From Bolinopsis microptera (Eukaryota > Ctenophora > Tentaculata > Lobata > Bolinopsidae), in NCBI RefSeq assembly GCF_026151205.1, contig NW_026971788.1:1-60161 (forward strand): DNA of 60,161 nt. The letters are read 5' to 3'. This document shows positions 8,517 through 58,752 of the stretch, piece by piece. Made by a program: the position numbers and the translations under genes. The first letter of the stretch is position 1. Every line of letters starts with the position of its first letter. Under the pieces are notes generated by a model. That model was not told the origin of the DNA and did not search any database. It saw nothing but the letters and a program-made list of their open reading frames with translations.

Positions 8517-9655
8517 ACTAAAGTTACCTGGCAATCGTTTTTAGAGGTAAGAGCTTGTACCAAATTAGACTTCAGTCTATACTAATACATTGGTTTGTGT
8601 GACTTCTGTTTTTGACTAATATTTTAGGTTCACCATGATGTACGTGACCGTAACAGCAATTACATCAGAAAACCCTGAGATAACGGCTATTTATCGCTCA
8701 TCACTCATGGCTCTGTTAAATCTAATCATGATACTCCGGTAGGAGGTTTTACATCATTTGATATGGATCGATGGATTCAAACTCGATTCAGAATGTTCTA
8801 CGTTTTAGAATTTTCCTCTGATGTAACGTTCTTAATTTTAGGCTTAAAGATTACTCAACCAATTTTCACTGGCAATTTCCAGTTAAAGTTTGAATGATCT
8901 GTGTTTCTTATCAGTCGCTTTGTTGAATTTCTGTTATTAATGTAGCCTAGACTTAGACCGTTCCAGGCAGACCTTCGTTGATAAAGTAGTTTTTAATTTT
9001 CACCTCTGGTGGCGGAGATTTTCATTATCGAGTTTCAATGATTGTAAAGAGTATTTGCTAATTTTCTGGACGTTGATCTTCTTATCGATGTTTAACAATA
9101 AAATTGGCAGCAGAGGAGACACTTACATATCCTATGAAGCCAACTTTGTGCTGGAAGCTGCAGATTTTTCCAACAAAACGATTACAAAAAGATTGGAGGC
9201 TAATCCTTTCGTGTTTTGCACCTGCTGTTACCGTCCTTTATCTTTTTATTTAGTACTAATATTTGTAATCGAATTTAGATATATTTACCGACATGATGTC
9301 GCAATATGTTTTGTAGGGCCATCATGTGATCTTATTTTCACTGATATTAATTGGTGACAACGTTATCGGTTTGTGCCATTAAGCAATCTCGGGCCTCTTC
9401 GCACGCCCCATTTTTCTTCGTTCAAAGTTGTTGTTAATACCGAATACGTAAATAAGATTTGGAACCATCAGCGGATAAGACCGCGTACATTATGAAAACC
9501 GAAATGCAGTCTGAAAATCAGTTAAGTGATTAAACACATATTTAGTATTTACCTGAGTTATTTGTAGTTGTACTGATAATTTTTTCCTATTCCAATTCAA
9601 ATTAATCTCTTCTCACAAGAGTCATTGATCATACAGAAAGTCCTCTTGTTTCAAG
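8517..9655. other. Upstream region of the SLC7-like gene, no supported coding sequence
   Basis: About 1.1 kb of AT-rich unique sequence between the minisatellite and the first recognisable transporter exon. It should contain the promoter and any upstream exon. The small open frame at 9055-9357 has no recognisable content. I see no clear TATA box or CpG cluster. Confidence 0.5.
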
Positions 9656-24308: not shown

Positions 24309-26357
24309 GTGGGTTTTGACTTACAAATAAACGCTGTCAAGCCATCCTATAGGCTCCTATTCTTCAGCTCTATTACGGACTCTGATTATCGCGAGCAATC
24401 CCTGACCTGGGACGGAAAAGATCTACCCAACAACAGTATCCGGCCAACGCAGTTTACCAACAAGCTTGGATACAGAATTGGGCAGGTTCATATCTATCAG
24501 CAAACACTCGATAACTTCACCAAGGCTGACTTCACATTGCTTCTTGATGCTCTAGAGCAACACACATCCAGCAAGGACTCGCTTGAAGACATGAAGACCC
24601 GAGCAAAAGTATTACTTGAAGACCCCTATGATAGTCCAAACTACGCTGCTGTGAGTGTGCTGATCAACAAAATGAAGCACAAAGAAGTTAAGGAGGAACT
24701 CACAGCGTGCAAACAGGCTATTGACGGTGCTGCAGCAATTTGTAAGCAAAGGTTGTGTCGATACCTTACAGAAGCAAGCGAAACTTCTTACATCACCAAT
24801 GCCCCCGAGGAGAACCTCTCCAAGACTGCCCCAATTCCAGAAACCTGCACTTCTCCGACAGATTTCCACTTTACCAGCTCTCTGCCCAACGCTGGGGACT
24901 TTCTCAAGTCAAGGGCATCTACTACCCGGCCTAAGGTTAACGTCAAGAGGAAGATACGAGAGTCGGATAGAATCACATCGGACAGCTGCTTTCAGGGCAT
25001 TGAAAGTTACATCAAATCCCTTGACGAAGCAACTAACAGTGATATCTTGAAAGAACTTGAATTCCTGAAACTTAGTACGGAAGGTGCTCCAAAGGCTAGG
25101 AGAAAGAGAATCTCTCAGTATATCCGCAAGACTTCTACCTCTGGGTCCTCTGAACAACTGAGCCTGATCGATAACAGACTAGCAGTGATCGAAAAATCAA
25201 ATATTTCTATCAGCTCAGCTCTAGGAGAAGTGCAAAAAGATCTGGATGAACTAAAGCTTACCAAGATGCCCGCTGATAAATCTAAGGGAGATTGCAAGAA
25301 CGCCACAACGTGTTCAAACGGAGTTGACCTCTTGAAAAATCTAACCAAAGCAAATCAAGATACCAGCTTACTTCTGGAAAAGTCCCAAAGCAGTTTAGAG
25401 GGCCTCACTCGAACCCTCAACGAAACTATGACTATCAAAAGGGATTTAGAAGCATGGCATGATAGCTTCTTCAAAAGCGAGGACAGCAACAAAATTGAGG
25501 AGATTCTAGCCATCCTAACATCATCAAAATCATCAAATCGGAGTAATTACCAAAAGAGGCCGAGTAATGAGACCCACGAACAGAATGAGAATTATGTTCC
25601 GAGATCCCCGCGCAAGACAAGGACCAACAGAGATATCCCCGGTCTTCCTCCTGAGCGAGGCCAAAGAGAGTCATACAGAAGGAGTGAGAGGATTAACACC
25701 GATCACAGGAACAGTTCCAGAAATGGAAACACTACACACTCATCTGATCGATCTAAAAGATTGAGTAAATCATCAGCACGGAAGAAACAGAAAGTGGTCC
25801 TTCTTTGTGACTCAACTATGCGGAGTTTCAAGTCAGAGGAGTTCTCCAAGAGATATGATGTCTCCATGATCTACAAACGCAGCTGGGACGAGCTCAGCTC
25901 CTGTTTGGGTGAAACTGCTGAGGAGATATCAAACAAAAACCCAGACGTAGTTTACATCCACCTTGGTGCTCATGACATCACGAATGGCCAACCGATTGAT
26001 TCTCTAATCAACACCTTTGTCCAGAGCACTGAAAAGATCCTCCGAGAAACATCACAAAAGTGCAAGGTGGTCATCTCTCATCCAATCATCTGCAATCAAA
26101 CCGATGGAGGGGGACTTAGAGCCAGACAACTTATCTCAGAGGCAATTCACAATCTCAAAGATGATAGAGACAAAGCAGACTTCTGGACTAGAACTCGGGA
26201 GAACAAGAACTCCAACTTCTTTCCTGAAGATTCGGAACTTCCTCACAATTACATGTTGACCTCAAACAAATCTCAGCTCAACGACAGGGGTATCAGGGTC
26301 ATTATGGGCAACTTCAGGACCAGCCTCGACAACACTTTCACCAGAGGCTCTCGTTAG
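24309..26357 (+). CDS. LINE ORF1 with C-terminal SGNH/esterase-like domain (682 aa)
   Basis: Residues 1-490 are polar and low in obvious domains, with several Lys/Glu-rich helical stretches. A basic segment (about 445-495: Arg-rich, ending SARKKQKVV) leads into a domain that starts VVLLCDSTMRSF and continues with VVYIHLGAHDITNG, CKVVISHPIIC and a C-terminal LNDRGIRVIMGNF. These are the block I, block III and block V regions of SGNH hydrolases, as found in ORF1 of several CR1-like LINEs, but the block I Ser sits in CDS rather than GDS and the usual GxND is GAHD. Role: RNA-binding or esterase function needed for retrotransposition, not settled for this family. The frame opens without ATG (GTG at 24309); the first ATG is about 95 codons in. 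Confidence 0.85.
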   Translation: MGFDLQINAVKPSYRLLFFSSITDSDYREQSLTWDGKDLPNNSIRPTQFTNKLGYRIGQVHIYQQTLDNFTKADFTLLLDALEQHTSSKDSLEDMKTRAKVLLEDPYDSPNYAAVSVLINKMKHKEVKEELTACKQAIDGAAAICKQRLCRYLTEASETSYITNAPEENLSKTAPIPETCTSPTDFHFTSSLPNAGDFLKSRASTTRPKVNVKRKIRESDRITSDSCFQGIESYIKSLDEATNSDILKELEFLKLSTEGAPKARRKRISQYIRKTSTSGSSEQLSLIDNRLAVIEKSNISISSALGEVQKDLDELKLTKMPADKSKGDCKNATTCSNGVDLLKNLTKANQDTSLLLEKSQSSLEGLTRTLNETMTIKRDLEAWHDSFFKSEDSNKIEEILAILTSSKSSNRSNYQKRPSNETHEQNENYVPRSPRKTRTNRDIPGLPPERGQRESYRRSERINTDHRNSSRNGNTTHSSDRSKRLSKSSARKKQKVVLLCDSTMRSFKSEEFSKRYDVSMIYKRSWDELSSCLGETAEEISNKNPDVVYIHLGAHDITNGQPIDSLINTFVQSTEKILRETSQKCKVVISHPIICNQTDGGGLRARQLISEAIHNLKDDRDKADFWTRTRENKNSNFFPEDSELPHNYMLTSNKSQLNDRGIRVIMGNFRTSLDNTFTRGSR

Positions 26358-26429
26358 TCCTTTTTCGTTTCTTCATCTTTTCACCTTCTTTTCGTTTCTC
26401 TCCAGGTCCCTCTCTGACCTTTCCTCATC

Positions 26430-29400
26430 ATGGACTTTGCTAACTCTATTATCTCCTGGAACGTAGCAAACATCCATGGCCTTCTTGGTAACAAGACAGA
26501 AGATCCAAACTTTCTCAATTTTATCACACCTCACGACGTTATCTGCCTCCAAGAAACTGGATGTGAAGTGTCTCTGAAAGGATATAAATCATACAACAAC
26601 ACACGCAAGACTGGGAGAGGTGGTGGTGTCACCACATTGGTGAAAAACTCGATATTGAAGTACTGCTCAGCTGTTGACATCAATCTAACTAAAGATCTCT
26701 CTATGAATATGACTATTGTCAAATTCACGAACCCAGGAACTAAAACTAACACCTTTCTGGTGAATAGTTACATACCACCAGCAAACAGCTCGAAGAACAG
26801 TCGGTTTAGCAACTCGGAGGCCAATTTTGAAGCTCTCCAAGCAGAAATTAGCAATCTCCGCGAGACCCCCGAGGATGAAATTCTTCTTGTTGGTGATCTC
26901 AACGCCAGAATAGGCTTGTCAACCAAGCTGCTGTTGTACGACAGAGCTGAAGAATTTGAGCTATTCCCAGAAACAGGCCGAACTTCCCAGGCCATGATAG
27001 TTCCTGATTCTGTCCCAATATCAAAGAGCAGATGGAGTGAAGACAAGTGCACTAATAGTCATAAGAAGCAACTTCTTGACCTCTGCGGATCAGAAAACCT
27101 ACTCATCCTGAATGGACGTACCATTGGGGATTCCACTGGAAAGTACACCTGTTTCAAGTGGAATGGCAACAGCGTAGTGGACTATTTCATAGCATCTTCC
27201 AACTTCCTTCATAGAGTGAGAAGTCTGACAGTCGGTGAGCACACCTTGTATTCGGACCACAACCCAGTTCTTCTCAGCTTGCGGAAGCAGCATTCGGTGA
27301 TGAACACTCAAACACCTGGAGATTCCACCCTCCGTTATGATGACGCTCCATTCCGATACAAGGTCTCAGAAAACAGTTTACTCAACTTCGCCCAGTCGTT
27401 CGAGGAGCCAGATATAGTCAACAGAATCTCGAACTTGCACAATGCTGCTGACGCTATCCCGACTACCCAGCAAGGGGTGAAGGAACTGAGTGACAAGATA
27501 ACTGATCTCATCAATTGCCTGGCAAAAAGAGAACTCGGTGTCTCTAAGCAAGCAAAGCATCCTAAACCAAAGTTCGATTCTTGGTTTGATGGTAATTGCC
27601 ATGCAGCCAGGCGACTCTTCAAGCGGTCAATCAAAGTTGTCGACCAAAACCCCGACAGTCAAAGGATCAAAGCCCGACACCGTGCCAACTCGAAAAGTTA
27701 CAGGAAGATCATCAATAAAAAGAAGGATGACTTTTTCAAAAGACTGAACAAAAAAATCAAGAATGGTAAAGCTATCTCTTGGCGGGATTTCAAGAAATTA
27801 AAGAACTTTAAGAAAGATGAGGTTCAAACCGATCCCGAACAGCTCCAAACTTTTCAGAATTTTTATGCTAATCTTTACTCCGACTCCCACCCAACTGTTG
27901 ACAGTCTTACTAAGAAAGCCCTTCTTGAAGAAGCTGACACATTTGCTAAAGGATCCGTGCCAAACGAAGCTTTAAACAGCCCTTTTACCATTGAAGAGCT
28001 GAACGGTGCCATCAACAGTCTGAAGACTGGCAAAGCGTCATCCTTTGACCATGTCAGTAACGAGATGATCAAAAGCCTAAACGAGAACATGAGAAATCTA
28101 CTTCTTAAACTTTTCAATCTCTGTTTGACCACAGGTGTGTATCTTTGGAGTAAAAGCGTGATAACGCCGTTACACAAGAAAGGCTGCATTAGAAATCCCG
28201 ATAACTACAGAGCTATTGCAGTCTGCAGCTGCATTGGCAAGCTATTGTCAACAATGCTGCTATCGAGACTTGTCACACACCGGCAAACGACACATTCAGA
28301 TCCGCCCAATCAAGCTGGATTCACCAAAGGGAGCCAATGTAATGATCACATTTTCACTCTGATATCGATCATTGAGAAGTACAAGAGAGTAAAGCAGAAG
28401 GTCTTTGCTATATTCATTGACCTTCGTAAAGCCTTTGACCTTGTATGTCGACAGGCCCTCCTATTCAAACTATCATGTTATGGTGTTAATGGTGGGTTCT
28501 ACAACATCATCAAAGACATGTACAGCAAGTCGGAAGGACATATAAAGATCAATGGCAAAATCAGTGAAGCCTTCAGTATCCTGAAAGGGACAGAGCAAGG
28601 TCACCCTCTTAGTCCAGAATTGTTCAAGGTGTACTTCAAAGAGCTCTCTGATCTCCTCAACGAAGCCCTAGCCAACTGCCCCATGCTTGCAGGACTTTCA
28701 GTAACTCATCTAGCCTGGGCTGATGATTTAGTTATTCTTGCCCTTGACCAAGAATCGCTGCAAAAGCTAATCACGATCATCACGACGTACTGCGATAACT
28801 GGGGACTGGAAATCAATATATCCAAAACCAAGTTTATGGTTTTCAACAGTAAAGCTCCGGATACCCCTAGTTGGCGTCCCAAAGCACATGGCAACGACAT
28901 CGAGATGGTCTCCCACTACTGCTATCTTGGCATTCTTATCAGTAGCAATGGTAAATTCCGACAAGCCACTGATTCTCTTTACCGCAAAGGGCTCGGAGCA
29001 TATTTCAGCCTCAGAAGCACAATCGATCGCAGATTTGTTGACGCCTCATGCTTCCACAAGCTTTTCAACTCACTGGTTAAGCCCATCTTACTGTACGGCT
29101 GCCAAGTCTGGGCACCCACTCTTCCAGAGGTAACAAAAGTTCTTTCGTGCCTCATGAGGGATCAAAACTTGAACAACTCAATGACCCACATGGCAAAGCA
29201 ACAAATCGAGCAGGTTCACCTCCGTCACCTGAAGTTCCTCCTTGGGATAAACAGACGGGCTACCAATGCAACTGCATGGGGTGAGACAGGTACGTACCCA
29301 CTACTGATCGAAGTATTAAAACTAAGTGTCAAATACTTCAAAAGGATAATGGGTCTTCCATCGTCTCAACTGGTGAAGGCTGCTATGACTGAGCAAATAA

Positions 29401-30071
29401 ACTTGCATCTTTCGTGGTACTCTGGAATAGAAAACATCATCAAGTGCTTCAACAACATTGATCCTAGAACATATGCAAGGAACTCTTCGCTTCTACTCAA
29501 CGCAACTGCGTTTGCAGACGCTTGCAGTCCAGACGAGCTGGTAAATAACTTTCAAAAGCTTTTTACAGACTCCTGGAGATCAAAGATTAACGAGAGCAGG
29601 AAACTCACTTTCTACAAGGACGTCAAAACAGTCTTTGCATGGGAGCCTTACCTCGATTATGCAAGAACTCTCAATGACAGAAGATCAACAGCTCAAATAA
29701 GGTGCAGTTCTCACAGACTCAGCATAGAAATTGGGAGATACGACAAAACACCTCTAGAGAGCAGAACTTGCACCTTTTGTGAACTGAAAGGATCAACCGG
29801 GATCATAGAGGATGAAACACACTTTCTCACTTCCTGCCCACAAGGGAAGGCTATCAGAGACAAGTTTACCAGAGCTAGTGAAAGCTTGGGAAACAGCAAT
29901 GACAACGGACTGAACAACATTGTCAACACTCTCTCTCGTACCGAAGATCTTTACGGTAACCTTAACGAGCAGGATGTGAACTTGATTAGACTTTCATGCT
30001 CAACCATCAGAGAAATGTACAGTCTGAACCTCAAGCACAAAGACAGCCTTCGTGATGAAGATGGAAAGTAG
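26430..30071 (+). CDS. LINE ORF2: endonuclease, reverse transcriptase, C-terminal zinc motif (1213 aa)
   Basis: Residues 1-290 form an APE-type endonuclease: ISWNVANIHG, CLQETG, LLVGDLNARIG, VVDYFIAS and YSDHNPVLLSL. The reverse transcriptase (about 510-800) shows VITPLHKKG, NYRAIAV, FAIFIDLRKAFDLV, GTEQGHPLSPELF and LAWADDLVIL, so the usual YADD box is WADD. Near residue 1115 is a C-terminal CTFC...EDETHFLTSC zinc motif. The start ATG at 26430 follows a pyrimidine-rich spacer. The domain order is that of target-primed reverse-transcription LINEs. Clade not fixed; the tail differs from LINEs A, B, D, F and G in this window. No stop or frameshift. Confidence 0.95.
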   Translation: MDFANSIISWNVANIHGLLGNKTEDPNFLNFITPHDVICLQETGCEVSLKGYKSYNNTRKTGRGGGVTTLVKNSILKYCSAVDINLTKDLSMNMTIVKFTNPGTKTNTFLVNSYIPPANSSKNSRFSNSEANFEALQAEISNLRETPEDEILLVGDLNARIGLSTKLLLYDRAEEFELFPETGRTSQAMIVPDSVPISKSRWSEDKCTNSHKKQLLDLCGSENLLILNGRTIGDSTGKYTCFKWNGNSVVDYFIASSNFLHRVRSLTVGEHTLYSDHNPVLLSLRKQHSVMNTQTPGDSTLRYDDAPFRYKVSENSLLNFAQSFEEPDIVNRISNLHNAADAIPTTQQGVKELSDKITDLINCLAKRELGVSKQAKHPKPKFDSWFDGNCHAARRLFKRSIKVVDQNPDSQRIKARHRANSKSYRKIINKKKDDFFKRLNKKIKNGKAISWRDFKKLKNFKKDEVQTDPEQLQTFQNFYANLYSDSHPTVDSLTKKALLEEADTFAKGSVPNEALNSPFTIEELNGAINSLKTGKASSFDHVSNEMIKSLNENMRNLLLKLFNLCLTTGVYLWSKSVITPLHKKGCIRNPDNYRAIAVCSCIGKLLSTMLLSRLVTHRQTTHSDPPNQAGFTKGSQCNDHIFTLISIIEKYKRVKQKVFAIFIDLRKAFDLVCRQALLFKLSCYGVNGGFYNIIKDMYSKSEGHIKINGKISEAFSILKGTEQGHPLSPELFKVYFKELSDLLNEALANCPMLAGLSVTHLAWADDLVILALDQESLQKLITIITTYCDNWGLEINISKTKFMVFNSKAPDTPSWRPKAHGNDIEMVSHYCYLGILISSNGKFRQATDSLYRKGLGAYFSLRSTIDRRFVDASCFHKLFNSLVKPILLYGCQVWAPTLPEVTKVLSCLMRDQNLNNSMTHMAKQQIEQVHLRHLKFLLGINRRATNATAWGETGTYPLLIEVLKLSVKYFKRIMGLPSSQLVKAAMTEQINLHLSWYSGIENIIKCFNNIDPRTYARNSSLLLNATAFADACSPDELVNNFQKLFTDSWRSKINESRKLTFYKDVKTVFAWEPYLDYARTLNDRRSTAQIRCSSHRLSIEIGRYDKTPLESRTCTFCELKGSTGIIEDETHFLTSCPQGKAIRDKFTRASESLGNSNDNGLNNIVNTLSRTEDLYGNLNEQDVNLIRLSCSTIREMYSLNLKHKDSLRDEDGK

Positions 30072-42588: not shown

Positions 42589-42976
42589 GCTGGTGTTCCA
42601 CGCTTGAGATACCGCACACAAACTGATCCCTTATTCTCTCATTCAGTTGGGCCTGCTCAAACATACACTTGATTGCCTGCTCTCTCAGTTTAGTGACAAA
42701 CTGTCCTGTGTCCTCTCCACTTCTTTGCTTCAACATATAAAACATATGGCGCTCAGAAAGTATCGTAGGTTTCGGTGCCATGTGAGCTTTGAGAACTTCC
42801 TCGATGGATTTTAGGCTTTCTCCAAGGAGTTCTTTTGGTGCTAAAAGATTCTTAATCCTCGTGAACATTTCCGTATCCATCGAATTCATGAGATGTATCA
42901 CCACCTTCTTTCTCATGGTCTCTGTAGCATTTGTTTCTGCATCAGATGGTGCGTCTGGGTTCGCGAATGTTGGCAT
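42589..42976 (-). pseudogene. Gypsy-like Gag fragment, main part
   Basis: The - strand reads MPTFANPDAPSDAE, MRKKVVIHLMNSMD, FTRIKNLLAP, then ERHMFYMLKQRSGEDTGQFV, LREQAIKC, LNERIRDQFVCGI. The pattern of Phe and Arg with Glu-Asp/Glu-Ser, a short Leu-Arg helix with Cys, and the DxFVCG close is that of Ty3/Gypsy capsid domains. It ends at the LINE A junction. The matching N-terminus is 5.1 kb away at 48113-48193. Confidence 0.8.
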
Positions 42977-42989
42977 TGTCAGATCCTGC

Positions 42990-44042
42990 TCTTATACTGG
43001 TGATTCAGACCCACCCCTATCCCCCACAATCCCAGCACCCCTTGCCTCAGCCATAGACGCAGTTACATCAAAGTGCAGACTGACCCATAAGCCCAACTCC
43101 ATCCTAATAAACTACTACCCTCCCTCAGTTGATACCACCACTAGTAGCAAGCTCCCTTTTCACTCTGACGATGAGTCTGAGATTATTGCTAACTCAGAAA
43201 TTGCTACTATCAGCATAGGCGACGTCAGGAAGGTGCGCTTTAAGTGCATCTATGAGACCGGAAACGAAGCCTCAACTGAGTATGTTCATAGTGTGAGTCC
43301 AGAATCTAACTCAGTGTATGTGATGACACGATCGTCACAAGCCTGGTATCGTCACGGTATTGATGAAACAGGTCCTGCTGAAACTCAGTCTTCTGTGCAG
43401 ACAGGAAGGTTCTCCATCACACTGAGAACTGTGAGCAAACAGTTTAGCCGGAGCTGCATCATCATGGGCGACTCTAACACCAAGCCCATCAAGTTCGGTG
43501 TCGGTACTGGAACCCTTGGACAGTCCTTCCCAGGTGAACGTGTTAAAGCCAACAAGGTCAGTGCAATAGACCCTAAGCTCTGCATTGGTTATAGCAACGT
43601 CATCTTAGTTTGTGGGACCAACGATCTACGAGTTGAAAATGTGCAGTCACCTGGTGATATACACCAGCTGGTAGACATTCTCCACCTGAAAATCCAGCAG
43701 ATCCAGAAACTGTGCCCTAAGGCGAAGTTGTTTGTCACAGCAGTTTTACCGTCTAGACTCCCTAAGATGAATAAAAACATTATGGCATTCAACAGCTTGG
43801 TTGATGAAATGTTGTACTCTAGCTTTAACCAGACTGTATGGCACCTTGGTGTTGGCCACTTTTTAGACGGTAAAGGGTTGCTTGCTATGAAACTCGCGAG
43901 AAATGGTGATGAAATCCATCTCGGAGAGCTTGGTATTGCTAAATTTGTGAGATGTCTGAAACAGTGGGTGTATGTGAGGGAGAGACAGGAGAGAGTAAGA
44001 CAAAGGAAGGCCACCCGACCAGTGGGAGTTTATCCCACTTAG
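42990..44042 (+). CDS. LINE B ORF1 with SGNH/esterase-like domain, 5'-truncated
   Basis: The open frame nominally begins at 42789, but before about 42986 it is antisense gag, so the true ORF1 part is about 350 residues. The C-terminal 200 residues form an SGNH hydrolase-like domain: SCIIMGDSNTKPIKFG (block I, GDS), VILVCGTNDLR (block III, GTND), LFVTAVLPSR, and EIHLGELGIAKFV near the end (block V, IHL). This is closer to a catalytic consensus than ORF1 of LINE E. It ends with TAG at 44040-44042; ORF2 begins seven bases later in the same frame. Confidence 0.85.
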   Translation, partial: SYTGDSDPPLSPTIPAPLASAIDAVTSKCRLTHKPNSILINYYPPSVDTTTSSKLPFHSDDESEIIANSEIATISIGDVRKVRFKCIYETGNEASTEYVHSVSPESNSVYVMTRSSQAWYRHGIDETGPAETQSSVQTGRFSITLRTVSKQFSRSCIIMGDSNTKPIKFGVGTGTLGQSFPGERVKANKVSAIDPKLCIGYSNVILVCGTNDLRVENVQSPGDIHQLVDILHLKIQQIQKLCPKAKLFVTAVLPSRLPKMNKNIMAFNSLVDEMLYSSFNQTVWHLGVGHFLDGKGLLAMKLARNGDEIHLGELGIAKFVRCLKQWVYVRERQERVRQRKATRPVGVYPT

Positions 44043-44048
44043 TTTATC

Positions 44049-47000
44049 ATGATTATGAAACTTATTAAAGATGTGTGCGACCCCTGTAGTAAATACATTA
44101 ATATTGGCCAGCCACTCTTAGAATGTGAAAATTGCAGCAAAGTTGTTCATACTAAGTGCTTCAGATCCGCGAAATTTACAAGCAAAAACGGTCTATGTAT
44201 GTGCAGTGATTGCTGTAGTACAATAGAAGATAGGTATTGCCCATTTCCAAGCAGCCAAAGATATGATGATTCAGATAAATTCTATGATACAAACAACCAG
44301 GAAGATGTCACCATAGCTAAATTCTCTTCAATACTTGAAGACTGTAAGCGTTACACAAAACAAGAACTAGCAAACTCAATCAGCAAACTTTTTCCTGAGA
44401 AAAATAAAAATTCTGCTTATCTGCCTGCTCTGTTTTGCAATATAGATGGGTTTGCTAGTAATTTTGACAGCTTTTTAATAGAACATAAGACCCTCCCGTG
44501 TAATTTTGATGTCATTGGATTGGCTGAGACCAACATCGATCCAAGCCAACAAGGCTTATACCAAATCCCCTCCTATACAACATTTTGTCAAGTACCATTC
44601 CCTGATAAGAAAAAAGGAACAGGAGTATCCTTATATGTCTCTGATCGCCTGAATGCTGTAGTAATCGAAAATCTATCTCACTGTACAAAAGATATTGAGT
44701 GCTTATTTGTTGAAATTACTCTTAGCTCGGGTGATAAACTGACATATGGGGTTGCTTATCGTCCTCCAAATGGCTGTAGTGAGACCTTTTGTCAAACTCT
44801 TGAGGATATATCTAAGCAGTTGGCTGGTAAAAAGTTCCATATTCTTGGCGATTTTAACTCTAACCTCCTCAATGTACAAACCTCCAGCCAGCTATTTGAG
44901 GACACGTTACTTCGTAACAATATGTATCCTACTATATCACTTGCTACCCACTTCCGTCCTAACTGTAAAAACTCATGTATTGACAATATCCTCACATCAG
45001 AGATAGATCATGTACTTCTCTCCGGTGTATTGAATGATAGGATTGGTGACCATGCCTTTATATTCACCTTCACGTCAATTCCTACCGAAAACAGTACTGA
45101 AAAACTTAAACATGTTCGCTACTATGATTATTCAAGTTCCAAACTCACTAATTTTGTTAATGAACTCGAGGTGAAGGTGAATGACTTGACTCCCTCGGTA
45201 AACTTCAATGAGTTCTTGGACTGCTTCAATGAAACACTTGATAAACACTGTAAGCTTGATGTTCCAAAAGTTACCAAAAGGACTCCCAAACTCAACCCGT
45301 GGATTACCGATGGAATCATTGTCTCAGTTGAAAGAAAACATGAACTCTGTAGAGACTGGTCAAGCACTGTAACAAATAGAAACCCTGAGGGTAATGTACT
45401 GCTCTATAAAGTCTTCAGTGACTACCGAAGAATGCTTAAAAGTATTATCAATGTCGCCAAACGATCGTACTACTGCAATGAAATCCATAAAAATATAGAA
45501 AACAGCAAAAAAACGTGGCAGATAATCAATGAGCTCAGGGGCAAGAAAAAGAAGCAAACTAAGCCTCCCTTTATCATAAACAACGAACGAATCATGAATC
45601 GTAGAGTCATAGCCAATGGATTCAACTCTTACTTTGTTTCTATTGCCCCTAAGCTCAATGAAACACTTAGTAGCAGTGAGGCCTCTGGTTTACCAATTCT
45701 CCCTATAAAAACATTCTATGATTTCCTTGGAAAGACTAATGAAAAATCGATTATGTTAGAAGACTGTACACCTTATGAGATAACGGAAATAATAAAAGGA
45801 TTTGAAAATGGAAAAGCAAGTGATATTCCTGTTAGTGTAATCAAAAGATCATCTCACGTAATTACACCGATCCTTAGTCGATACATCAACATCTTAATGT
45901 CTAATGGCACGTTCCCCGACGTTCTAAAGACTGGTAGAATAACTCCTGTATTTAAGAAGGGAAACCCTGAAGAGATAGAAAACTACCGCCCAATCTCTAC
46001 TCTCTCTATATTTGGTAAAATCTTTGAAAAGATCATTTACTCAAGAATATATTCGTTTGCTAGCTCACAGGGTATAATATCTAAAACACAATTTGGCTTC
46101 AGGCAGTCACACTCTACTTCACATGCAGTTAATCACTCAGTAAACCTTATAACTGAATCTCTAAAACTTAAGCATCATGTCTTAGGCATATTCATAGACC
46201 TTAGCAAAGCTTTTGATACAATAGATCATGGTACATTACTTGTCAAATTACAGGGCTATGGGATACGTGGGGTGGCAAATGATCTTATAAAAAGTTACTT
46301 AACAAATAGATCACAATATACTGAAGTTGTTGGTGAGAAATCTGACGCCTTGAAAATACAGTTTGGAGTCCCTCAGGGTTCGATTCTTGGACCTCTCTTA
46401 TTTCTCCTATATATTAATGATATCGCCAACAGCTCCAGTTTGGGATCATTTGTCACCTTCGCTGATGACACCAATATATTTGTGACTGGGAAATCTAAAA
46501 AGGAGGCATATATGCGTGGTAATTCTCTTTTAGCTAGTTTATATTCCTACATGCGAGCAAACAAACTCCATGTCAACTTGTCTAAATGCTGTTTCATTCA
46601 CTTTAAACCAGCATCGTCCTCCCAGACTGACAATAATTCTGAATATACTCTAACCATTGATAACTTTCCAATAAAACAAGTTGCATCTGCTAAGTTTCTG
46701 GGAGTCGTCATCGATGAAAAGCTAACCTGGGAAGAACATATAAAATCACTTAGGCGTTCTCTAGCCATGCAACATCAACTCTCTGCCGCCTACGCTGCTC
46801 CCTCCCAGATTTCTTACACCGCCAGTTGTATTACACTCTATTTGAATCACACCTCTCCTATTGTATCACGGTTTGGGGTGGGGCAGCCAAAACTCGTATA
46901 AGTTCTGTATTCAAAGCACAAAAATATTGTCTCAGGGTACTGTTTGGCGACAGGGAGGCATACCTAGATAAATTTAAGACCTGTGCTCGTGCTCGACCGT

Positions 47001-49153: not shown

Positions 49154-51995
49154 TTATTTTGATACGCAACACCACCCCTATGGATCAGACAGCAAACAGT
49201 GCAGAATCCACAGAAACACCTAATCAACACACCAACCTTACAACACAAACACCTAATCAACACACCAACCCTACCACCCAACTTTCATTTAATGACTCAC
49301 TCATATCACTATTTGGACAGCATGCATCCACACTGGCCAAAACCACCTCTCACAGCATAGAACACATGGCCATTAACTCATGTCACATATCATTCCTGAA
49401 AGCCTGCCGTGATCACTCACTCATCCCTAAGGGACTCAGACTCACCAACCCACTATCCACCAAACGCTCAACTGAAGTCCTCACTCACGCATCTAACCTC
49501 CTCATCACTGAAAGACTCAACCACTATCGCCTCAAATATGCACAACACAAACGCACTTATGAGCACAACCTCAGACACATAGAATCACTCATAACCCCTC
49601 AATATTTTCAGAAACTAGGACACCTCAACACCAAAAAATCCTCATACACCCACAGAAAACAACTCCTTACTCACCAAAAGAAGTTCGCGGTACTACTCTC
49701 AGAATACGACACCCCGTTCCTCTCACCCTACGACACTCTTAAAACGCTCGACATACCCTCTCCCACATTTCATGGTCCCCTCCTCAAGACCTCACCTACC
49801 CCCAAGAAAGACACCACAGCCAAAACAGTGATCAACCTCTCTGGACAGACCCTCTCCACAGCTGAAACTGACGTACTCTCCCTTGGACTGAAGTTCGTCC
49901 CGACACCCACCTCAGATCCTACCCCCGACCTGGCTCCCCTCATACAGAATATCACTAAACAACTAGGAGAAGGCATGGAAGCCTCAGCCACATATCAGGT
50001 CACCTCTGTATTATCTAAATTTGACAATAAACGTGACATGACCACCGACAATTTGACTCCACAACAACGTACCGCTCTTAAATCTTTAAAATCTAAGAAA
50101 TCAGAATTGAAATTTCTTCCTGCTGATAAGGGCAACGCCACTGTTGTACTTACTCACGATCAATACATAACCAAAGTTACCGACCACTTATCCTCAGGTA
50201 GTTACACCCTCTTAACGAAAGACCCCACTCAATCCGTTACCACTAAACTACAGAAAGTCCTCAAGAAACTACACACCGACAAGAAGATCACGACCGACCT
50301 ATACCACAAGATGCGCAACCTACATCCTAGATGGCCTCAACTTTACGGACAACCTAAGATACACAAACCCGGCGCACCTATCCGTCCCGTAGTCAGCTTC
50401 TACAACACCCCCCTCCAAGCCCTCCACAAAGTCCTCGCATCTTTCCTCAAACCCCTAGCCCAGAACCCCTTACGCCTCAAAGACTCTTCCGACTTCAAAC
50501 ATCGCTTCGACTCCTCTCTCAATCCCTCCTTCCACTACCACGCCTCCTTAGACGTCCAATCCTTGTACACCTCCTGTGACATGCGCCTAGCCCTCAAAAC
50601 TGTCATCTCCTCCTTTGAACAGAACCCCTCTCGTCTTCCCTCCAATGTCACCACCACCACCATAGGCTCCCTTATCAACTTTTGCCTTGACAACTCATAC
50701 CTTGAATTCAACGGCTCCTTCTACTCCCAAGACGAAGGTGGTACAATGGGATCCCCTCTCATTGTTGAACTAGCTGAAATCCGCCTTGCTGAAATCGAGA
50801 CCTTAGCTTTATCCTCATGTCCTGACCCTCCGAACACTTACTCCCATTTCGTTGACGACGGCCTTGGATCTTTCAGAGACAGAAACCACGCAGAATCCTT
50901 CCTTACATTCCTTAACTCCCTTACTGAAGACCTCAACTTTACCCAAGAACATCCCTCTACACACGGAACTATACCCTTCCTTGACGTTCTCATCCACCCT
51001 GACAAATCCACATCAGTCTACAGAAAACCCACCCACACCAACCTCTACACCAAGTACTCCTCCTGCACCACCAACTCATCTAAGAACGCAGTTATCCGAT
51101 CACTGACCAGAAGAGCCCACAACATCTGCTCACCCCAACACCTTGACGACGAACTCCAGACAGTACGACACATTTGCCTCCAGAACGGCTTCCCTCCTCA
51201 CCGCATCACCACCATCATGGACGAAGTACAACGGAAATTCACCAACCCCTCTCGCCACCAATCCCTAGCCTCATTCAACCGACAGACCCGTGAACATGCC
51301 CTTAGTGTTTCTCTTCCTTTCCATCCCTCCCTATCCAAACCCATCTCCAAGATACTCGGACAACACGACATCAAAGTCACCCACTCCTCTGCTACCTCCC
51401 TCCGCAACCTCCTCACCAAAACGAAGACCACACCCCCTACTCACCTCACTCCCAACACCATCTACGAAATTTCCTGCTCACAGTGCCCCTCCAAATACGC
51501 CGGACAGACCTACAGACCCTTGGTCCACCGCATGAAAGAACACGAACGATGCTACAGACTCAACAACGCCATCGACGAATCCACAGACAGAATAAAATCA
51601 GCCCCTGCACATCATGCCCTGACCACCGGCCACACCATCTCCTGGAACAACATCGAAGTCCTCAAATCCCTCACCTCACGCTCCCAACTTGACCTCACAG
51701 AACACGCAGCTATACAAATACGACAACCAGCTATGAACAGAACAGACCGCGCACCCAAATGTAGTTCCCTCTGGGACCCCATTCTTCCTAAAATTGCCAA
51801 ATCCTTAAAGTCCAGACCATCTGGCATTTCCTTCTCAACCTCAACAGAAGACTAAATTTTTTATTGACATTGTACTGTAATTTTCACTTTTCCACCCACA
51901 CCTCCCCCACCCTCCATCCCTGACACCACTCAATCACATATAAGCATTGTCCACCACATCACATTCAGCTGACGACGATTAACACATGTTTATTG
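49154..51995 (+). mobile_element. Penelope-like retroelement (PLE), apparently complete in its coding part
   Basis: 2842 bp between 62-bp perfect direct repeats. It contains one long frame with a PLE reverse transcriptase and a GIY-YIG endonuclease. Its base use (C-rich, A-rich on the coding strand, few G) is unlike the surrounding LINEs. No long terminal repeats of its own were seen. Confidence 0.92.
49180..51855 (+). CDS. Penelope-like polyprotein: reverse transcriptase plus GIY-YIG endonuclease (about 891 aa)
   Basis: The frame is open from 49159, but the first ATG is at 49180. The N-terminal 300 residues are Thr/Pro/His-rich with a helical stretch. The reverse transcriptase (about 310-640) has FLPADKGNATVVL, PQLYGQPKIHKPGAPIRPVV (the PLE template-grip motif), ASLDVQSLYTSCD (motif A), EGGTMGSPLIVELAE (motif B) and YSHFVDDGLGSF (motif C, FVDD). 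After about residue 790, IYEISCSQCPSKYAGQT, HRMKEHERC and the closing NRT form a GIY-YIG nuclease with the CxxC found in many PLEs. No lesion is seen, so the element may be recent. Motif B ends VELAE where SPxxAN is common. Confidence 0.95.
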   Translation: MDQTANSAESTETPNQHTNLTTQTPNQHTNPTTQLSFNDSLISLFGQHASTLAKTTSHSIEHMAINSCHISFLKACRDHSLIPKGLRLTNPLSTKRSTEVLTHASNLLITERLNHYRLKYAQHKRTYEHNLRHIESLITPQYFQKLGHLNTKKSSYTHRKQLLTHQKKFAVLLSEYDTPFLSPYDTLKTLDIPSPTFHGPLLKTSPTPKKDTTAKTVINLSGQTLSTAETDVLSLGLKFVPTPTSDPTPDLAPLIQNITKQLGEGMEASATYQVTSVLSKFDNKRDMTTDNLTPQQRTALKSLKSKKSELKFLPADKGNATVVLTHDQYITKVTDHLSSGSYTLLTKDPTQSVTTKLQKVLKKLHTDKKITTDLYHKMRNLHPRWPQLYGQPKIHKPGAPIRPVVSFYNTPLQALHKVLASFLKPLAQNPLRLKDSSDFKHRFDSSLNPSFHYHASLDVQSLYTSCDMRLALKTVISSFEQNPSRLPSNVTTTTIGSLINFCLDNSYLEFNGSFYSQDEGGTMGSPLIVELAEIRLAEIETLALSSCPDPPNTYSHFVDDGLGSFRDRNHAESFLTFLNSLTEDLNFTQEHPSTHGTIPFLDVLIHPDKSTSVYRKPTHTNLYTKYSSCTTNSSKNAVIRSLTRRAHNICSPQHLDDELQTVRHICLQNGFPPHRITTIMDEVQRKFTNPSRHQSLASFNRQTREHALSVSLPFHPSLSKPISKILGQHDIKVTHSSATSLRNLLTKTKTTPPTHLTPNTIYEISCSQCPSKYAGQTYRPLVHRMKEHERCYRLNNAIDESTDRIKSAPAHHALTTGHTISWNNIEVLKSLTSRSQLDLTEHAAIQIRQPAMNRTDRAPKCSSLWDPILPKIAKSLKSRPSGISFSTSTED

Positions 51996-52069: not shown

Positions 52070-53206
52070 GATGCCCAAAACAGGTTCGATAATGAGTGGC
52101 ATAATGACAACTTTAACAGTTTTGGACCATGCTAGATTATTGATAAAAACGTGGAATTTATGTAAACAAATACTTAATTACTTAAATATTGCCGTTTCCG
52201 TACGGCGCTATACGTAATATATGTTAAAAGCGCGCCGCAGCTACTCCCTACTTCAACATTTGCGCAGGTTTCTTAAGCGCGCACGTACGTTTATTCTTGG
52301 CCGTTAATCAGACCCATGACATAACGCTATAGGTGGCAGTGACTGTAATTTTCTTCAACAATTACTGAATTATCCATCCATAAAGTGATTTACAAAATGA
52401 CACCTAAACCTCGTGTTTCGGTGTTCACTTAAACGGTACTTGGCGGCTGAACTGTGGTGTCTGACGTTTGCAGCTAGATCGGACTCTGCATGATATTGTA
52501 TTAGCAAATTTGTATAGTGTATTATAATTGTTTAGTGTTTATGATACTCTGCAACCTGGTAGCACGGCTGACACAAAAACAAAATGTTGGCCTGGCTTGT
52601 GCATAACCAAGTAAATAACACGCACTCCGATAAAAGCCGTCTGGAGAAACTCCGCAAAATGTTCATTGTAGTCAACGGGCACAAAGAAGCACTACTAGCA
52701 ATTTTGTCCTTTACCCTCCTACATAATTTGAACATTTTTGTGGCTAACTCATTGAACAACATCTGAATTAAAATGTGTCTAGTATTAAAAGATTCAGTAA
52801 GTAATTTTTTCATGTACGCTGTACACTGTAGTTAGTAAATGCAAATCAAACTTTTTCGATCAGCCGCGCTGAACCAGTGTTGCACTAGGTAAAAATTGTG
52901 TATATTTTGTTCATTTTTGAGTGTAAATTAATTTATTAATTTATCACAAATTATTTTATTATAATATAACCACTTATGTGAAATGGTTATTTTGACTTGA
53001 AATATTTGAACTAAATATGAATTGATTGTGGGTATAAAATAAAATTTGTTTTACTAAAAATTTGTTTTACTAGTTATCCGAATATTTTATGATTTTTCAT
53101 CTTTAATATCTTGTATATCATTTTGTTAGTCTGATGAGTCTCATACATAGATTTCTTGTGGTCATCATCTATTTTTTGTTAGAAAACCTGCTAACCTTTC
53201 TTGGAT
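52070..53206. other. Unique AT-rich stretch without a supported gene
   Basis: About 1.1 kb. Short open frames (52532-52813, 52584-52766) show no recognisable content. One GC-rich patch near 52215-52290 (AAGCGCGCCGCAGC). The last 6 bases are part of the flank of the next element. Confidence 0.5.
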
Positions 53207-54440
53207 GGACACGTTCATTTGAGTTTGAGGATATTGGTAAATATAAGTGACCCTATTAAAAGGCACAGTGTAGTTGACTTTGTCACACTATGAAATTACT
53301 TAAACCCTTGATGGTTAGGATAATCGTCTCATCCTCCAGGCTAACTTTGTCACATAACGATATCTTCTTCAGGTGATAAGATATCGCTTAAATACGGCCG
53401 GCACGGAAATGGTTACATTGTCACACTATAAACAGGTGACGGAGTAAATATGGACCCCTTGCTGCCGTTTTTGACCAAACTTTTGAGTGTCCAGTTGATT
53501 GGATGGGTACATATGACCATTACCTACATATTTGACGACTTTTTTCGTTAGATGGTGCATTCAGGTTTACTCTGTCACACATTAAAGAAAATATGTGATG
53601 AATGTTTAGGGCACCCTGATAAGCAATGCTGAGTAGTGTAAGTTTATTTGATGGCCTGGAAGTGCTGGGAATTGTTATTATATCATATAGTCGTAAGGAA
53701 TTAAAACACAGAAGGCACAACCAAGCTTACTTTGTCACATAATCTTGATGATATCTGAACATGTGTGAAATTGAACAAATAATGATATACCAGCTTAAAC
53801 CGCTTATATTATACGTACTATGGATCAAACAACACTGCTAGTACCATGCACCAGTCACATAAATCATTATCAGGTGGTAATATGTTAACAGTGTCACAAT
53901 TAAACTACCGCAACATGGTCAAAAATAGGGTAATTTCGTCACAAAAAATTATTATAACTCTGTTAGCTCCTTGCTGGCAAAATAACTAGTTTATCGAAAT
54001 TTTTTTGATGATAAAGTTACATAGTATTCTAATAGAGGTATAGTTCTTCAAAATAGGGGCAAGACATGTTTACTTTGTCACATCAGTTATTATAAGAGTT
54101 AGGTAATCGTCATCAGATTAAAAGATATTTTTCGTAGTTTGGATCGATTAATACTTTAATATACCTGCAATAAATCCTATGCCAATTTTAACACACTATC
54201 TTGATACTGTTGGGGCAGGGAAAGTTAATTTTGTCACATTTTCAATGTCTTTGACAAATAAATCTAAATTTTTAAAATTGAGTTCTTATGTTCTGGACAA
54301 TATTCTTCCAATCGTTTTGAAAGAATGTTGAATTCTAATAGAGTGATAGATCTTCAAAATAGGGGCAAGACATGTTTACTTTGTCACATCAGTTATTATA
54401 AGAGTTAGGTAATCGTCATCACATTAACATATATTTTTTA

Positions 54441-57384
54441 ATAAAACAAAAGTTAATAAAACAAAAGTTAAATTTATTACCAATTATTCAATCAATACAT
54501 ATCATAAATTCTAATATTGGAAACACAATGCAGAATGGATGTCTTAAACTATAATTTGTTGTCACTAATAATCTATTTACTTTCAAAGTTGAAATTTAGT
54601 TAAGTATGAAATGCCACCACATCATAGTTAGGGTAAAATATAATTCTTAAAAATTTTAAAATTAAGAAGATTGCTCTATGACTTAAAATTTAAAATTTAG
54701 CTAAAGATGTCTAATTTTTAAATAGTTGGTTACAGTTTATGACAGTACTGGCATGACCAATTTTATTGTGGCTGGTAAAAGGACCCAGTTGCCTGTAAGG
54801 GCTTTACCGAACCCCTGGGGACCACAATGTGATAGGATCAGGCCAGATGTTTCTATGTAGAGCAATTTATTTATTTCGGAGCTATGGTTACGTGGTATAG
54901 TTGGTGGTCATGTTTAAAGGTCAGTTTATCCTTGTGTGCTAATTATCCATCCAGATGCTTAGTGATGTGAGTAAATCATGCCCTTCTACATTATATAACG
55001 TTTAACTATAAATTTGTTTTTACCACAGAAACTGTGGCACTAAGGTCAAGAATTAAAAATTTGTACTCTCATTGATAGTTAAAGCGTTTTTTTTTTTTTT
55101 TCCCCAGCACTACTACACAACAAAAACCTGTCGGCCCACCGAGGAAACACAGTCGCAGAACAAAGAACCCAATTGTGCTCCTCTATTCTGCGATCGTGTG
55201 TATTTACTATAAACTAGCTAAATGCAGTTAGTAAAATTTTCTGGAATCATTCAAGTCGTTTGATTAGTTTATGTGTCAAAGTAATGTCCATGATAATCAT
55301 ATTTTTGGATCCCCGGTGGGCAAACACTCGTCCCAAAGGCTAAGGCAAACCTGTCAATGTTTCCCCATACGAAGTAAGGAGAACACATACTCAGCCTACA
55401 ACTCCACCCATGGGACGAGACGTCGTGAGCCTCAAAATATATAGCATATACCCAGTCAGCAAACACTATACACAACATACATACGATACCAATCAATGTA
55501 TAATGCCATTACTTCATTTAAAAGAAAATACATCTGCTATCTAATTTTTAAAAAAATTGAAGAATAAACCTGAAGAGAGGAGAAGGAGAGAGGGGTTTGG
55601 GAGAGGTAGAGTAGGAAAACAACAAGATCCTGTGCCGCAGGATTTTAAAATTTGTTGTATGATGATTCGTTTTGTGTCGTCTCTTAGATTAATATAGGTC
55701 TGATACCCTTGTCATGGTTTTTTGCAATAACACCGTGGTTTACTCATGTGATTATGTTTACTAAATCAACCTATTTCAATGATAATTCATTTGCATCAAA
55801 GTTGTAACTGCACCAAAGTTGTCGGTCATATTTAGACTGTAGTTCTAACAAAGATTTCTTAAGATTATTCTTGAATATACTGATGGGCGTGGAGAAGTCT
55901 ATTTCACTTGTTGACTTACGGCAGTGATTCCAAATACTAGTTGATTGATAGATGAATAGTGAGGATGGAGTGGGTGGGATGAAGTAGTTGTCTCGTCTTG
56001 GTGACCTGTTGAATAAAGAGAACATTGAGATTGGTGATTGGAACTTATTAATTTTGAACATTTCCAGTAAACAGTGCAACTTATGAAGATTGTGGACAGT
56101 CAGGAAGTTATACTCGTTACAGATTGGTTTACTGTGTTCTAGTTCAAAGAAATCTTTGCCTAACATCTGCTTGATAACTTTACCGGTCTTATCCCTAGTG
56201 ATAGGCCTTACTCTGGCACATGTTTTGAACTTATTGAAGTATGCATCATTATCACCAAAGAGAATTCTTATGCATTTCTTTTGTGTTTTAAATATGGCTT
56301 CTAGTTTATTATTTGATACACCTCCCCAAACAGATATTCCATAACATAGGTGTGATTCAAAAAGGGTGTGGTACAGGTCCTTATATAGTTTTTTAGGTAC
56401 ACAGCGTCTAATTCCACATAGTCTACCTATCTCACATTTCAATTTACGGTTTAACGCTCTTAAGTGAGCATCCCAGTTCAGTTTTTGGTCAATAATGACT
56501 CCAAGAAACTTAGTTTCCTCCACCTTTTTAATTACTATATTATTTAGTGTCAGTTCTAATTCATTGGTGTTTGAATCTGGTTCATTTCTACAGTTCGGCT
56601 TAAAGTGGATATAGCAACATTTCTTTATGTTGATATGCAGCAAGTTACTCTTCATATACTGATGAACAAGTTTAAGAATTTTATTAGCTTTGCAGTAAAG
56701 TGTTTTTATACATTTATCTACAACAAATATGTTGGTGTCATCGGCAAAAAGTATAAACTTACCTAGGTCTGATACTCTATATATTTCATTGATGTAGATA
56801 ATGAAAAGCAAGGGACCTAATACTGACCCCTGGGGCACACCAAATATTACAGACAGTTTTTCGGATTCTTCTCCAAGTACTGAAACATATTGCTGTCTAT
56901 TAGAAAGGTAACTGGCTATCAATTTATTTGCAGTCCCTCGAATTCCATAATCATTCAGTTTTTTAAGCAGTTTATCATGACAGATTGTGTCAAAAGCTTT
57001 ACTTAAATCAATGAAGATGCCTAGTACGTGATTTTTATCTCTTAAAGATTTTTCAATGTAGTCGACAGAAAAGTTGAGTGCATGGCTTGTCGAGTGATTT
57101 TTTCTAAAGCCATATTGATTTTCATATAATAATCCTTGCGACTGAAAGAAACTGTAAAGCCTGGAGAATATGATTTTTTCAAGTATTTTACCGAATATTG
57201 CTAAGGTTGAGATAGGCCTGTAATTTTCAAGAAGCTCAGCATTTTCTTTCTTATATATTGGACTTATTTTACCTACTTTTAGGTCGTCTGGAAAAAATCC
57301 CTGTTGCATACATTCGTTGTACAATACCGATAGTAGTGGGCTAATTTTGCCTGATACTGCCTTTACTATATGTACTGGTATGGT
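54441..57384 (-). mobile_element. LINE G: 5'-truncated non-LTR retrotransposon
   Basis: Inserted within a tandem unit of the surrounding element: the sequence before 54441 and after 57384 continues the unit seen at 54120-54170. The 3' end carries doubled AAAACAAAAGTTAATA (54441-54470). It has a 1.3-kb 3' UTR that includes a T15 run at 55089-55103 and small frames without content. Confidence 0.88.
55771..57384 (-). CDS. LINE G ORF2: reverse-transcriptase part and C-terminal tail
   Basis: Open from the truncation (TIPVHIVKAVSGKISPLLS) to the stop at 55771-55773; the first Met is at 57324. It contains ENYRPISTLAIFGKILEKI, LGIFIDLSKAFDTICH, GVPQGSVLGPLLFIIYIN, the catalytic FADDTNIFVV, KFLGVIIDQKLNWDAHL and the YHTLFESHLCYGISVWGG tail block. 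Closest in this window to LINE B, about half of residues shared by eye. The endonuclease and PHD regions are absent. No stop or shift. Confidence 0.93.
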   Translation of the reverse strand, partial: TIPVHIVKAVSGKISPLLSVLYNECMQQGFFPDDLKVGKISPIYKKENAELLENYRPISTLAIFGKILEKIIFSRLYSFFQSQGLLYENQYGFRKNHSTSHALNFSVDYIEKSLRDKNHVLGIFIDLSKAFDTICHDKLLKKLNDYGIRGTANKLIASYLSNRQQYVSVLGEESEKLSVIFGVPQGSVLGPLLFIIYINEIYRVSDLGKFILFADDTNIFVVDKCIKTLYCKANKILKLVHQYMKSNLLHINIKKCCYIHFKPNCRNEPDSNTNELELTLNNIVIKKVEETKFLGVIIDQKLNWDAHLRALNRKLKCEIGRLCGIRRCVPKKLYKDLYHTLFESHLCYGISVWGGVSNNKLEAIFKTQKKCIRILFGDNDAYFNKFKTCARVRPITRDKTGKVIKQMLGKDFFELEHSKPICNEYNFLTVHNLHKLHCLLEMFKINKFQSPISMFSLFNRSPRRDNYFIPPTPSSLFIYQSTSIWNHCRKSTSEIDFSTPISIFKNNLKKSLLELQSKYDRQLWCSYNFDANELSLK

Positions 57385-57555
57385 ATTTGTAGTTTGGATT
57401 GATTTATATAGGTAATAAAGCAGCCTATGCTAATTTTTACACACTATCTTGAAATTGTTGGGGCATGAAAAGTTAATTTTGTCACATTTTTAGTGACTTT
57501 GACAAATTTAACCTAAAATTGTTAAACTTAAGCTCTGATGTTCTGGACATTATTC

Positions 57556-57925
57556 TAACTAGCAGGAACCCGTCAAACCTTTAAGACTGGTGTCAAGGCT
57601 CTTTGGTGGCCGGATCAGTTTCCTACCCTAAAGTCTCCCAGTGAAAATAATTATTACCTATTTAATTCGCGTTTTTGACACCACTTGGGGGTCCAAATTT
57701 TGGGTACTAAAATTCTTATTCCTTGGCCAATTTTCGATTTTTTCATGCTGATTTGAAGGCCATTAAAGCATTTGAATCAGTTAAAAAAGTTTCAGTTTTA
57801 TATCTTGTACGGTTTTTGCGGAAACCCGTGTTAAAGTTGATGCCGTGGTGTCAGTAAAATGGTGCGGATAAATAAATATATATATATATATATATATATC
57901 GTCTCGCTTTATATATAGTAAGATA
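57556..57925. mobile_element. About 365-bp insertion ending in a TA repeat
   Basis: Interrupts the unit seen intact at 54290-54365. It begins AACTAGCAGGAACCCGTC and ends near an (AT)n run and TATATATAGTAAGATAG. The AACTAGC...AACCCG start followed by a TATATA-rich end is a form I have seen in widespread eukaryotic interspersed repeats, but I cannot name the family with confidence. No coding content. Confidence 0.5.
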
Positions 57926-57984
57926 GAGGTATAGAATAAAGATCTTCAAAATAGGGGCAAGACATGTTTACTTTGTCACATCAG

Positions 57985-58066
57985 TTATTATAAGAGTTAT
58001 TATAAGAGTTATTATAAGAGTTATTATAAGAGTTATTATAAGAGTTATTATAAGAGACTATTTCAT
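57985..58066 (+). repeat. 12-bp tandem repeat (ATTATAAGAGTT), about 6 copies
   Basis: Local expansion of a phrase present once in each of the units at 54090 and 54395. A simple slippage array within the candidate element. Confidence 0.9.
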
Positions 58067-58752
58067 TCTATAATCATTGTTTTTAATCTATTTACGATTT
58101 CGTATAATTTTTTGTGACAATGTTAACATCAACTGATCTTAACTTGCATCAACTACATTGTCATCATATAAAACTTTCCCGCCTTTCAAACCAAAATCAG
58201 ATATAAATAATTCGCCCAAAATTTTAAATACCATATATTGTGACAGAATTAACCTCATTTCCCAATAACGGAGTGCCTGTATTAGCTAACTATTCAAAAC
58301 AACATATTTTAGGGCTATGATTGGTAGAGCAACCATCAAATAATGAGTTGAAAGGGTTTTTAGGACACCTCACAGTAGAATAGAGGTATGGTATCATGAG
58401 TGTGACAAAGTTACCCAAATATTGCCTTGTAACCGTTCGATCTGTGCCCATTAACCAATGTTGTATCATAATTGTTAGATTGACCTAATTTACTATATTT
58501 CAGACCAAGGAATGATAATTAGACAACTGCAGTTAACTAAGTCACACAAAATGTGACATTTGAAACATTATAGTGCCTAACAACAATAGATTTTCTTTTT
58601 GAGCGGTGCATATGGGAGTATGGGTTACGTGGCTAATGTTCAGAACTTCTGAACGTGCTAGGTTAATAGATGTCAAAATTAAGCCACTATCGTCAAAAAC
58701 GCTATTATTTTTGTTTACCAATATCCTCAAACTCAAATGAACGTGTCCGGAT

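Follow-up and report, generated by a model that had tools for sequence, protein, structure and literature searches.

Several short transposase-binding motifs lie in the subterminal region of maize En/Spm and other CACTA elements, which have CACT termini and short target-site duplications, usually of 3 bp. Non-autonomous derivatives of inverted-repeat transposons, both those of the miniature inverted-repeat transposable element (MITE) type and larger ones, have short exact ends, a duplication of fixed length, many young copies and no transposase. Tetris of Drosophila virilis reportedly has the foldback structure of the P superfamily. In the part of PMC4079207 that concerns it, Tetris is a foldback element with expandable internal tandem repeats and the source of a satellite. 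Sola2 elements, in the families treated in the relevant part of PMC3627910, have AT-rich 4-bp duplications of the form AWWT (e.g., ATAT, AAAT, ATTT) and ends of 12–21 bp. Here we describe a transposon of the ctenophore Bolinopsis microptera, found at positions 53207–58748 of a 60,161-bp stretch of contig NW_026971788.1 (assembly GCF_026151205.1; this whole stretch is called the window).

The element shares the features of the non-autonomous derivatives listed above; it differs from them in its length of at least 2.2 kb, in an internal array of conserved sites and in that no autonomous parent was found. It is distinguished from CACTA elements by GGACAC termini and a 4-bp duplication. With Tetris it has the expandable internal tandem repeats in common, whereas its ends are inverted repeats of 35 bp instead of a foldback. 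With the Sola2 families of PMC3627910 it shares AT-rich 4-bp duplications, including ATAT, although ATAA and GGAT occur here too and its ends exceed the 12–21 bp given there. The element is a non-autonomous cut-and-paste DNA transposon with terminal inverted repeats, and its superfamily is left open. The literature search, in which the element's letters themselves were not searched in print, found no published description of the family; as far as this search goes, the family is new, a member of an element kind already familiar. We consider it very probable that this is a transposon of about 2.2 kb with a conserved array of GTCACA sites, that its transposase acts in trans, and that the copy in the window has received two later insertions.

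Copies of the Element in the Genome

The window copy is bounded by exact 35-bp terminal inverted repeats at 53207–53241 (plus strand) and 58714–58748 (minus strand), which can be extended to 40 bp at 95% identity; the termini are GGAC..GTCC. The duplicated GGAT stands directly outside them, at 53203–53206 and 58749–58752. The 35-bp ends and the GGAT beside them agree with an earlier note on this DNA, made from the letters alone, which had proposed a non-autonomous family with such ends and had set beforehand a genome search for further copies. A search of the 264.65-Mb genome for a 31-nt piece of the end, with up to three mismatches, gave 1,011 places (502 forward, 509 reverse), a count that takes in subfamily C, with ends different at 2 bases; the reversed piece, used as a control in the same genome, was found at none. 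The 100 end places listed include 82 that face each other in 41 pairs; in 29 of these pairs the ends are 1.77–2.60 kb apart, and in the remainder the distance is longer.

Six complete copies, read from assembled pieces, are 1,874–2,230 bp in length, and their limits coincide with the inverted repeats; the length of an intact element is about 2.2 kb. The longest frame from stop to stop is 85 codons in these six copies, all of subfamily A, and the maximum rises to 86 codons when one intact copy of subfamily C is included. The level of pairwise identity over the first 800 bp of the six complete copies and the window copy is 94.6–99.6% (mean 96.8%, 21 comparisons); the family is therefore young.

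An exact 4-bp duplication is present in all 12 copies in which both flanks were read: ATAT in eight, ATAA in three and GGAT in one, which is the window copy. Eight loci for which one flank was read (L003, L006, L007, L018, L019, L020, L044, and L049) are outside this tally, and their flanks end in ATAT or ATAA. Ends that coincide with the limits in many copies and a duplication of constant length are two of the marks of an inverted-repeat transposon, a third being a DDE transposase in an autonomous relative; this part of the proposal of the earlier note is borne out. The alignment of empty sites gave a result for one of nine joined flank pairs: the flanks of L014/L015 are uninterrupted in L033, a paralogous empty site with about 70% identity across 405 query bases. 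Since the match is only at this level, the insertion there is supported, but its position is not fixed to the base.

At two genomic sites, ends of the same direction follow each other at steps of about 2.4–2.8 kb and are succeeded by one opposite end. In G000 C1, they are at 12307988, 12310377, and 12312768 (plus), then 12315280 (minus); in G000 C3, they are at 14148052 and 14150896 (plus), then 14152987 (minus). Perhaps these rows are head-to-tail tandem copies of the element, that is, a satellite in the making.

Search for an Autonomous Partner

The earlier note had also set a search for a long relative carrying a transposase. No such relative was found among the long copies or among the copies with diverged ends that were fetched. 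The former are 23 copies from the listed end pairs in which 3.6–14.4 kb separate the ends (a 3.3-kb pair, at C2:15486861, was left out), and in most of them the inner part was read. Inserts with reverse-transcriptase frames were found in 11 of them (L021, L024, L026, L027, L028, L048, and L054–L058), and the insert in L022/L023 is Penelope-like; these labels are based on reading of the frames. The L025 insert has an apparent 9-bp duplication and a frame of 125 amino acids, which gave no match in Pfam and which we take to be MULE-like, and the insert in L047 has CACCCC ends. The length of L029 and L030 is mainly due to growth of the array. The inserts in L032, L045, L046, L049, and L051 contain no recognisable transposase.

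Two more inserts are transposons. A 5.8-kb insert flanked by TTAA and having GGGGGCA ends is located at L043:1525–6801 and continues in L044; judging by the TTAA and the ends, it is presumably Kolobok-like. Its frames resemble a 3'-5' exonuclease (weak match to PF16473, E 0.051). The insert at L050:593–4426 has the ends TAGTACAGTCAAATCCGTC and a TTG duplication; its frames seem to resemble a protein present in many animal genomes, and the one frame tried in Pfam gave no match.

The diverged-end sample consists of nine copies (L034–L042) and ten copies (L059–L068) obtained via an exclusion pattern and an older inverted-repeat type. L065 proved to be an ordinary copy of subfamily A; the remaining copies have the same ends and old interiors. 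L063 runs into a frame with a BTB domain, which is probably a host gene.

Matches to four transposase families were counted within 8 kb inside 376 element ends. These ends are 97 of 100, 100 of 100, 100 of 100, and 79 of 94 rows from four end lists, each of which lists part of the ends counted; ends on small contigs and odd end forms were omitted. The matches entered were 23 of 26 for piggyBac, 86 of 88 for MULE, 98 of 114 for DDE_Tnp_4 and 148 of 150 for hAT (150 of 366 hAT candidates were scored). Where one gene gave two pieces, the second was omitted, as were near neighbours and matches located on small contigs; the transposase scans of the genome are lower bounds. None of the four families is clearly enriched inside the ends. 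For MULE, 0 of 86 matches are there (1.0 expected by chance), and for PIF/Harbinger-ISL2EU, represented by DDE_Tnp_4, 1 of 98 (1.1 expected). The hAT elements have 8-bp duplications and were rejected given the 4-bp duplications found here; their dimerisation domain was located inside the ends in 3 of 148 cases, with 1.7 expected. For piggyBac, 0 of 23 matches were inside the ends (0.3 expected), and the TTAA duplication typical of this superfamily is absent among the 12 duplications scored. The piggyBac termini given in the relevant part of PMC10045372 (5'-CC..GG-3') also differ from the GGAC..GTCC of the present element. Chapaev was excluded on the same kind of evidence, the termini in the relevant part of PMC4079192 being CAC. 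A search for the KDZ transposase gave no match in the genome, and the control genomes gave none either.

Sola2 is the best lead for the superfamily, an unproven one. If a Sola2-type transposase mobilises the element, the family would be a non-autonomous Sola2, which we regard as possible but not likely. The ATAT duplication, found in 8 of 12 copies, fits the AWWT form described for the families in PMC3627910, whereas ATAA (3 of 12) and GGAT (1 of 12) are outside it.

The GTCACA Array and Its Conservation

The GTCACA core occurs 18 times in the 5,542-bp interval of the window copy, while first-order Markov sequences contained 2.6 on average and 8 at most (300 draws). The TTAAYTTT extension, at up to four mismatches, accompanies 16 of the 18 cores. 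Fifteen of these 16 extended motifs are directed inward: 12 are on the plus strand, on the left side or in the array, and three are on the minus strand, on the right. Both the number of about 18 and the predominant orientation toward the centre had been given correctly in the earlier note. The left subterminal region with the first array units (53242–54439, plus strand, 98.8% identity to an intact copy) contains plus-strand 14-mers with GTCACA that start at 53274, 53341, 53412, 53566, 53726, 53885, 53930, 54069, 54225, and 54375. The array continues after an interruption at 57386–57558 (plus strand, 99.4% identity to the intact copy L008), with a plus-strand motif at 57473. The last partial unit, with a plus-strand motif at 57967, and the right subterminal region occupy 57923–58748 (plus strand, 99.3% identity to L008); the motif scan placed inward minus-strand motifs at 58113, 58239, and 58401 in the right region, and the outward one, on the plus strand, at 58533. 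A motif spacing of about 40–160 bp, which had been noted for the window copy, is indeed found in the intact copies scanned, but in the window copy it is broken by two inserts.

The repeat at 54026–54132 (plus strand, 107 nt compared) recurs at 54332–54438 (plus strand) with 94% identity, and the stretches 54176–54259 and 57424–57507 are 89% alike. The array unit is 301–303 bp in length and contains two GTCACA sites at a distance of about 150 bp. Differences in the number of units can be noted between copies: L030 has 5.9 units (96% match) and L029 has 5.2 (94%), while the other five aligned copies all have more units than L010. The array therefore grows and shrinks inside the element; its growth had been suspected from the window alone. 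The diverged tandem units described there are confirmed for the two pairs above, but not for the segment 57983–58056, where 6.2 copies of the 12-bp unit AGTTATTATAAG stand in tandem.

The complete copy of subfamily C, L031, is 2,734 bp in length, has an ATAT duplication and an end that reads GGACACGTTCATTGAAG...; across the length of the A copy, its identity to subfamily A is 75.8%. In the 19 GTCACA cores of the A copy, 109 of 114 bases are the same in C; for random 6-mers the mean was 86.0, and 0 of 5,000 sets were as high. This comparison of sequences supports, indirectly, a constraint on the GTCACA core such as a protein-binding site would impose. Related ends (e.g., GGACATGTTCATTTGAAGTTGAGGATATTGG) mark old copies with about 67–78% identity to A over longer alignments. 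Given these old diverged copies, the lineage has probably been resident for a long time, with A and C spreading recently. Six older copies (L040, L042, L061, L062, L067, and L068) can be aligned past the inverted repeat to A at its left end, and in four of them the first GTCACA is 68–81 bp from the end, as compared with 75 bp in A.

The conserved array may also be explained without a transposase that reads it. The sites might serve a host DNA-binding factor, with a role, for instance, in promoting expression, in looping or in replication, and be spread by the transposon; in our opinion, this is unlikely. The constraint on the core comes without a demonstrated tie to transposition, which suits such a factor, and the relevant part of PMC12221973 links the end motifs of placozoan Mutator elements to chromatin loops. 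However, the ctenophore loop-anchor motif given in the same part is GC-rich, unlike GTCACA, and at both ends of the element the majority of motifs are directed inward, as end recognition predicts. Somewhat more doubtful still is the view that the row of motifs is a functionless relic of tandem duplication. The intact A copy L012 has 19 cores, and six of them are indeed located in its duplicated part (positions 863–1514), but when the single-copy flanks are taken by themselves, C retains 75 of 78 core bases, a value reached by 4 of 5,000 random sets.

Nested Insertions in the Window Copy

When the window copy is compared with the intact L008, three blocks at 98.8–99.4% identity and two extra stretches can be distinguished, the latter being gaps against L008 and outside the element proper. 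The first stretch, at 54440–57385 (minus strand, 2,946 bp), contains a reverse transcriptase at 55774–57324 (minus strand; PF00078, E 1.2e-36) and is taken as a 5'-truncated non-long-terminal-repeat (non-LTR) retrotransposon. The second, at 57559–57922, is 364 bp in length; our guess is that it is a retrotransposon tail. Both inserts arrived after the element itself, and it is because of them that the window copy is 5.5 kb in length instead of about 2.2 kb. The earlier note had treated the whole of 53207–58748 as one element, and this has to be corrected, since over half of it is nested insert sequence. Its pairing of 54350–54440 with 57390–57555 was right, as the retrotransposon inserted at 54440–57385 lies between two halves of one unit. 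A composite 5.5-kb element with a reverse transcriptase of its own, which the location of this gene between the inverted ends could suggest, is refuted by the intact copies, which run uninterrupted across the site, and other long copies carry different inserts, mostly at other places.

Other Features of the Window and the Genome

An AlkB-type 2OG-Fe(II) oxygenase domain (PF13532; E 1.3e-18 and 7.4e-22) was found in the window at 42789–46898 (plus strand) and in L021:8097–9401 (minus strand). In the window, the oxygenase frame immediately precedes an endonuclease-reverse transcriptase frame, and in L021 it is near such frames; a non-LTR retrotransposon thus seems to carry the oxygenase. Another apparent non-LTR retrotransposon occupies 24309–30071 (plus strand), and its first frame has a weak match to GDSL/SGNH hydrolase (PF13472) that, at E 0.0038, falls short of the curated cut-off. 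The frame of 898 amino acids at 49159–51855 (plus strand) gave no match in Pfam; we take it to be Penelope-like with a GIY-YIG-like end. Long overlapping frames at 7417–8585 (plus strand) are composed of a single word in repetition (TVTYWYSYVVLLRTGTVMWYCYVLVQL...) and apparently represent an array of tandem repeats. The Rfam search of the window gave no match at the gathering threshold. Elsewhere in the genome, six full-length actin matches are located within about 100 kb (G000 C10:11726819–11822979), the matched part being free of stops and introns.

Proposed Mechanism and Implications

Since no transposase can be recognised in the element itself, it probably depends for its mobility on an enzyme yet to be found. 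A DDE-type transposase, either produced from another part of the genome or lost not long ago, would bind the inverted ends, cleave at GGAC/GTCC and insert the element at ATAT-like sites with a 4-bp stagger. The mostly inward GTCACA sites could load the transposase on the element ends or loop it over them, and multiplication of the unit of about 302 bp, by unequal exchange or replication slippage, would provide more such sites. We infer that the transposase binds these sites and that a larger number of them would benefit the element. A further idea, which is a long shot, is that a so far undescribed DDE superfamily, or a deep branch of Sola, needs the long inward row of GTCACA, and that copies multiply their sites in a selfish arms race for the transposase.

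Several observations weigh against a trans-mobilised transposon with a conserved GTCACA array. No transposase belonging to the element was found in the 23 long copies, nor was any recognisable transposase found in the 19 copies fetched for diverged ends, save a short hAT fragment in L067. Eight of the nine joined flank pairs have no empty site among the fetched loci compared. Outward motifs exist: besides the one at 58533 in the window, there are two in L008 and L012, which are intact copies. The test of conservation is based on a single copy from each of two subfamilies. Among the six older copies aligned past the inverted repeat, the first site is lost in L040 and L068, which seem to be copies of one another, and the first GTCACA there is at 150; several other old copies carry few or no GTCACA. 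The full 14-mer is no better kept between A and C than random sequence: 206 of 266 bases are the same, the random mean is 200.5, and 1,692 of 5,000 sets are as high. With the core conserved and the 14-mer at background level, the relevant motif is GTCACA and not TTAAYTTTGTCACA, the 14-mer put forward in the earlier note.

The kind of element is in itself ordinary, and the constrained core with a variable array is slightly beyond routine. The family is a marker of recent transposition in a ctenophore genome, and its copies, many and young, differ in how many conserved sites they carry. Should the transposase be identified, the relation of copy number to site number would be a natural test of subterminal sites as a competitive advantage for a non-autonomous element.

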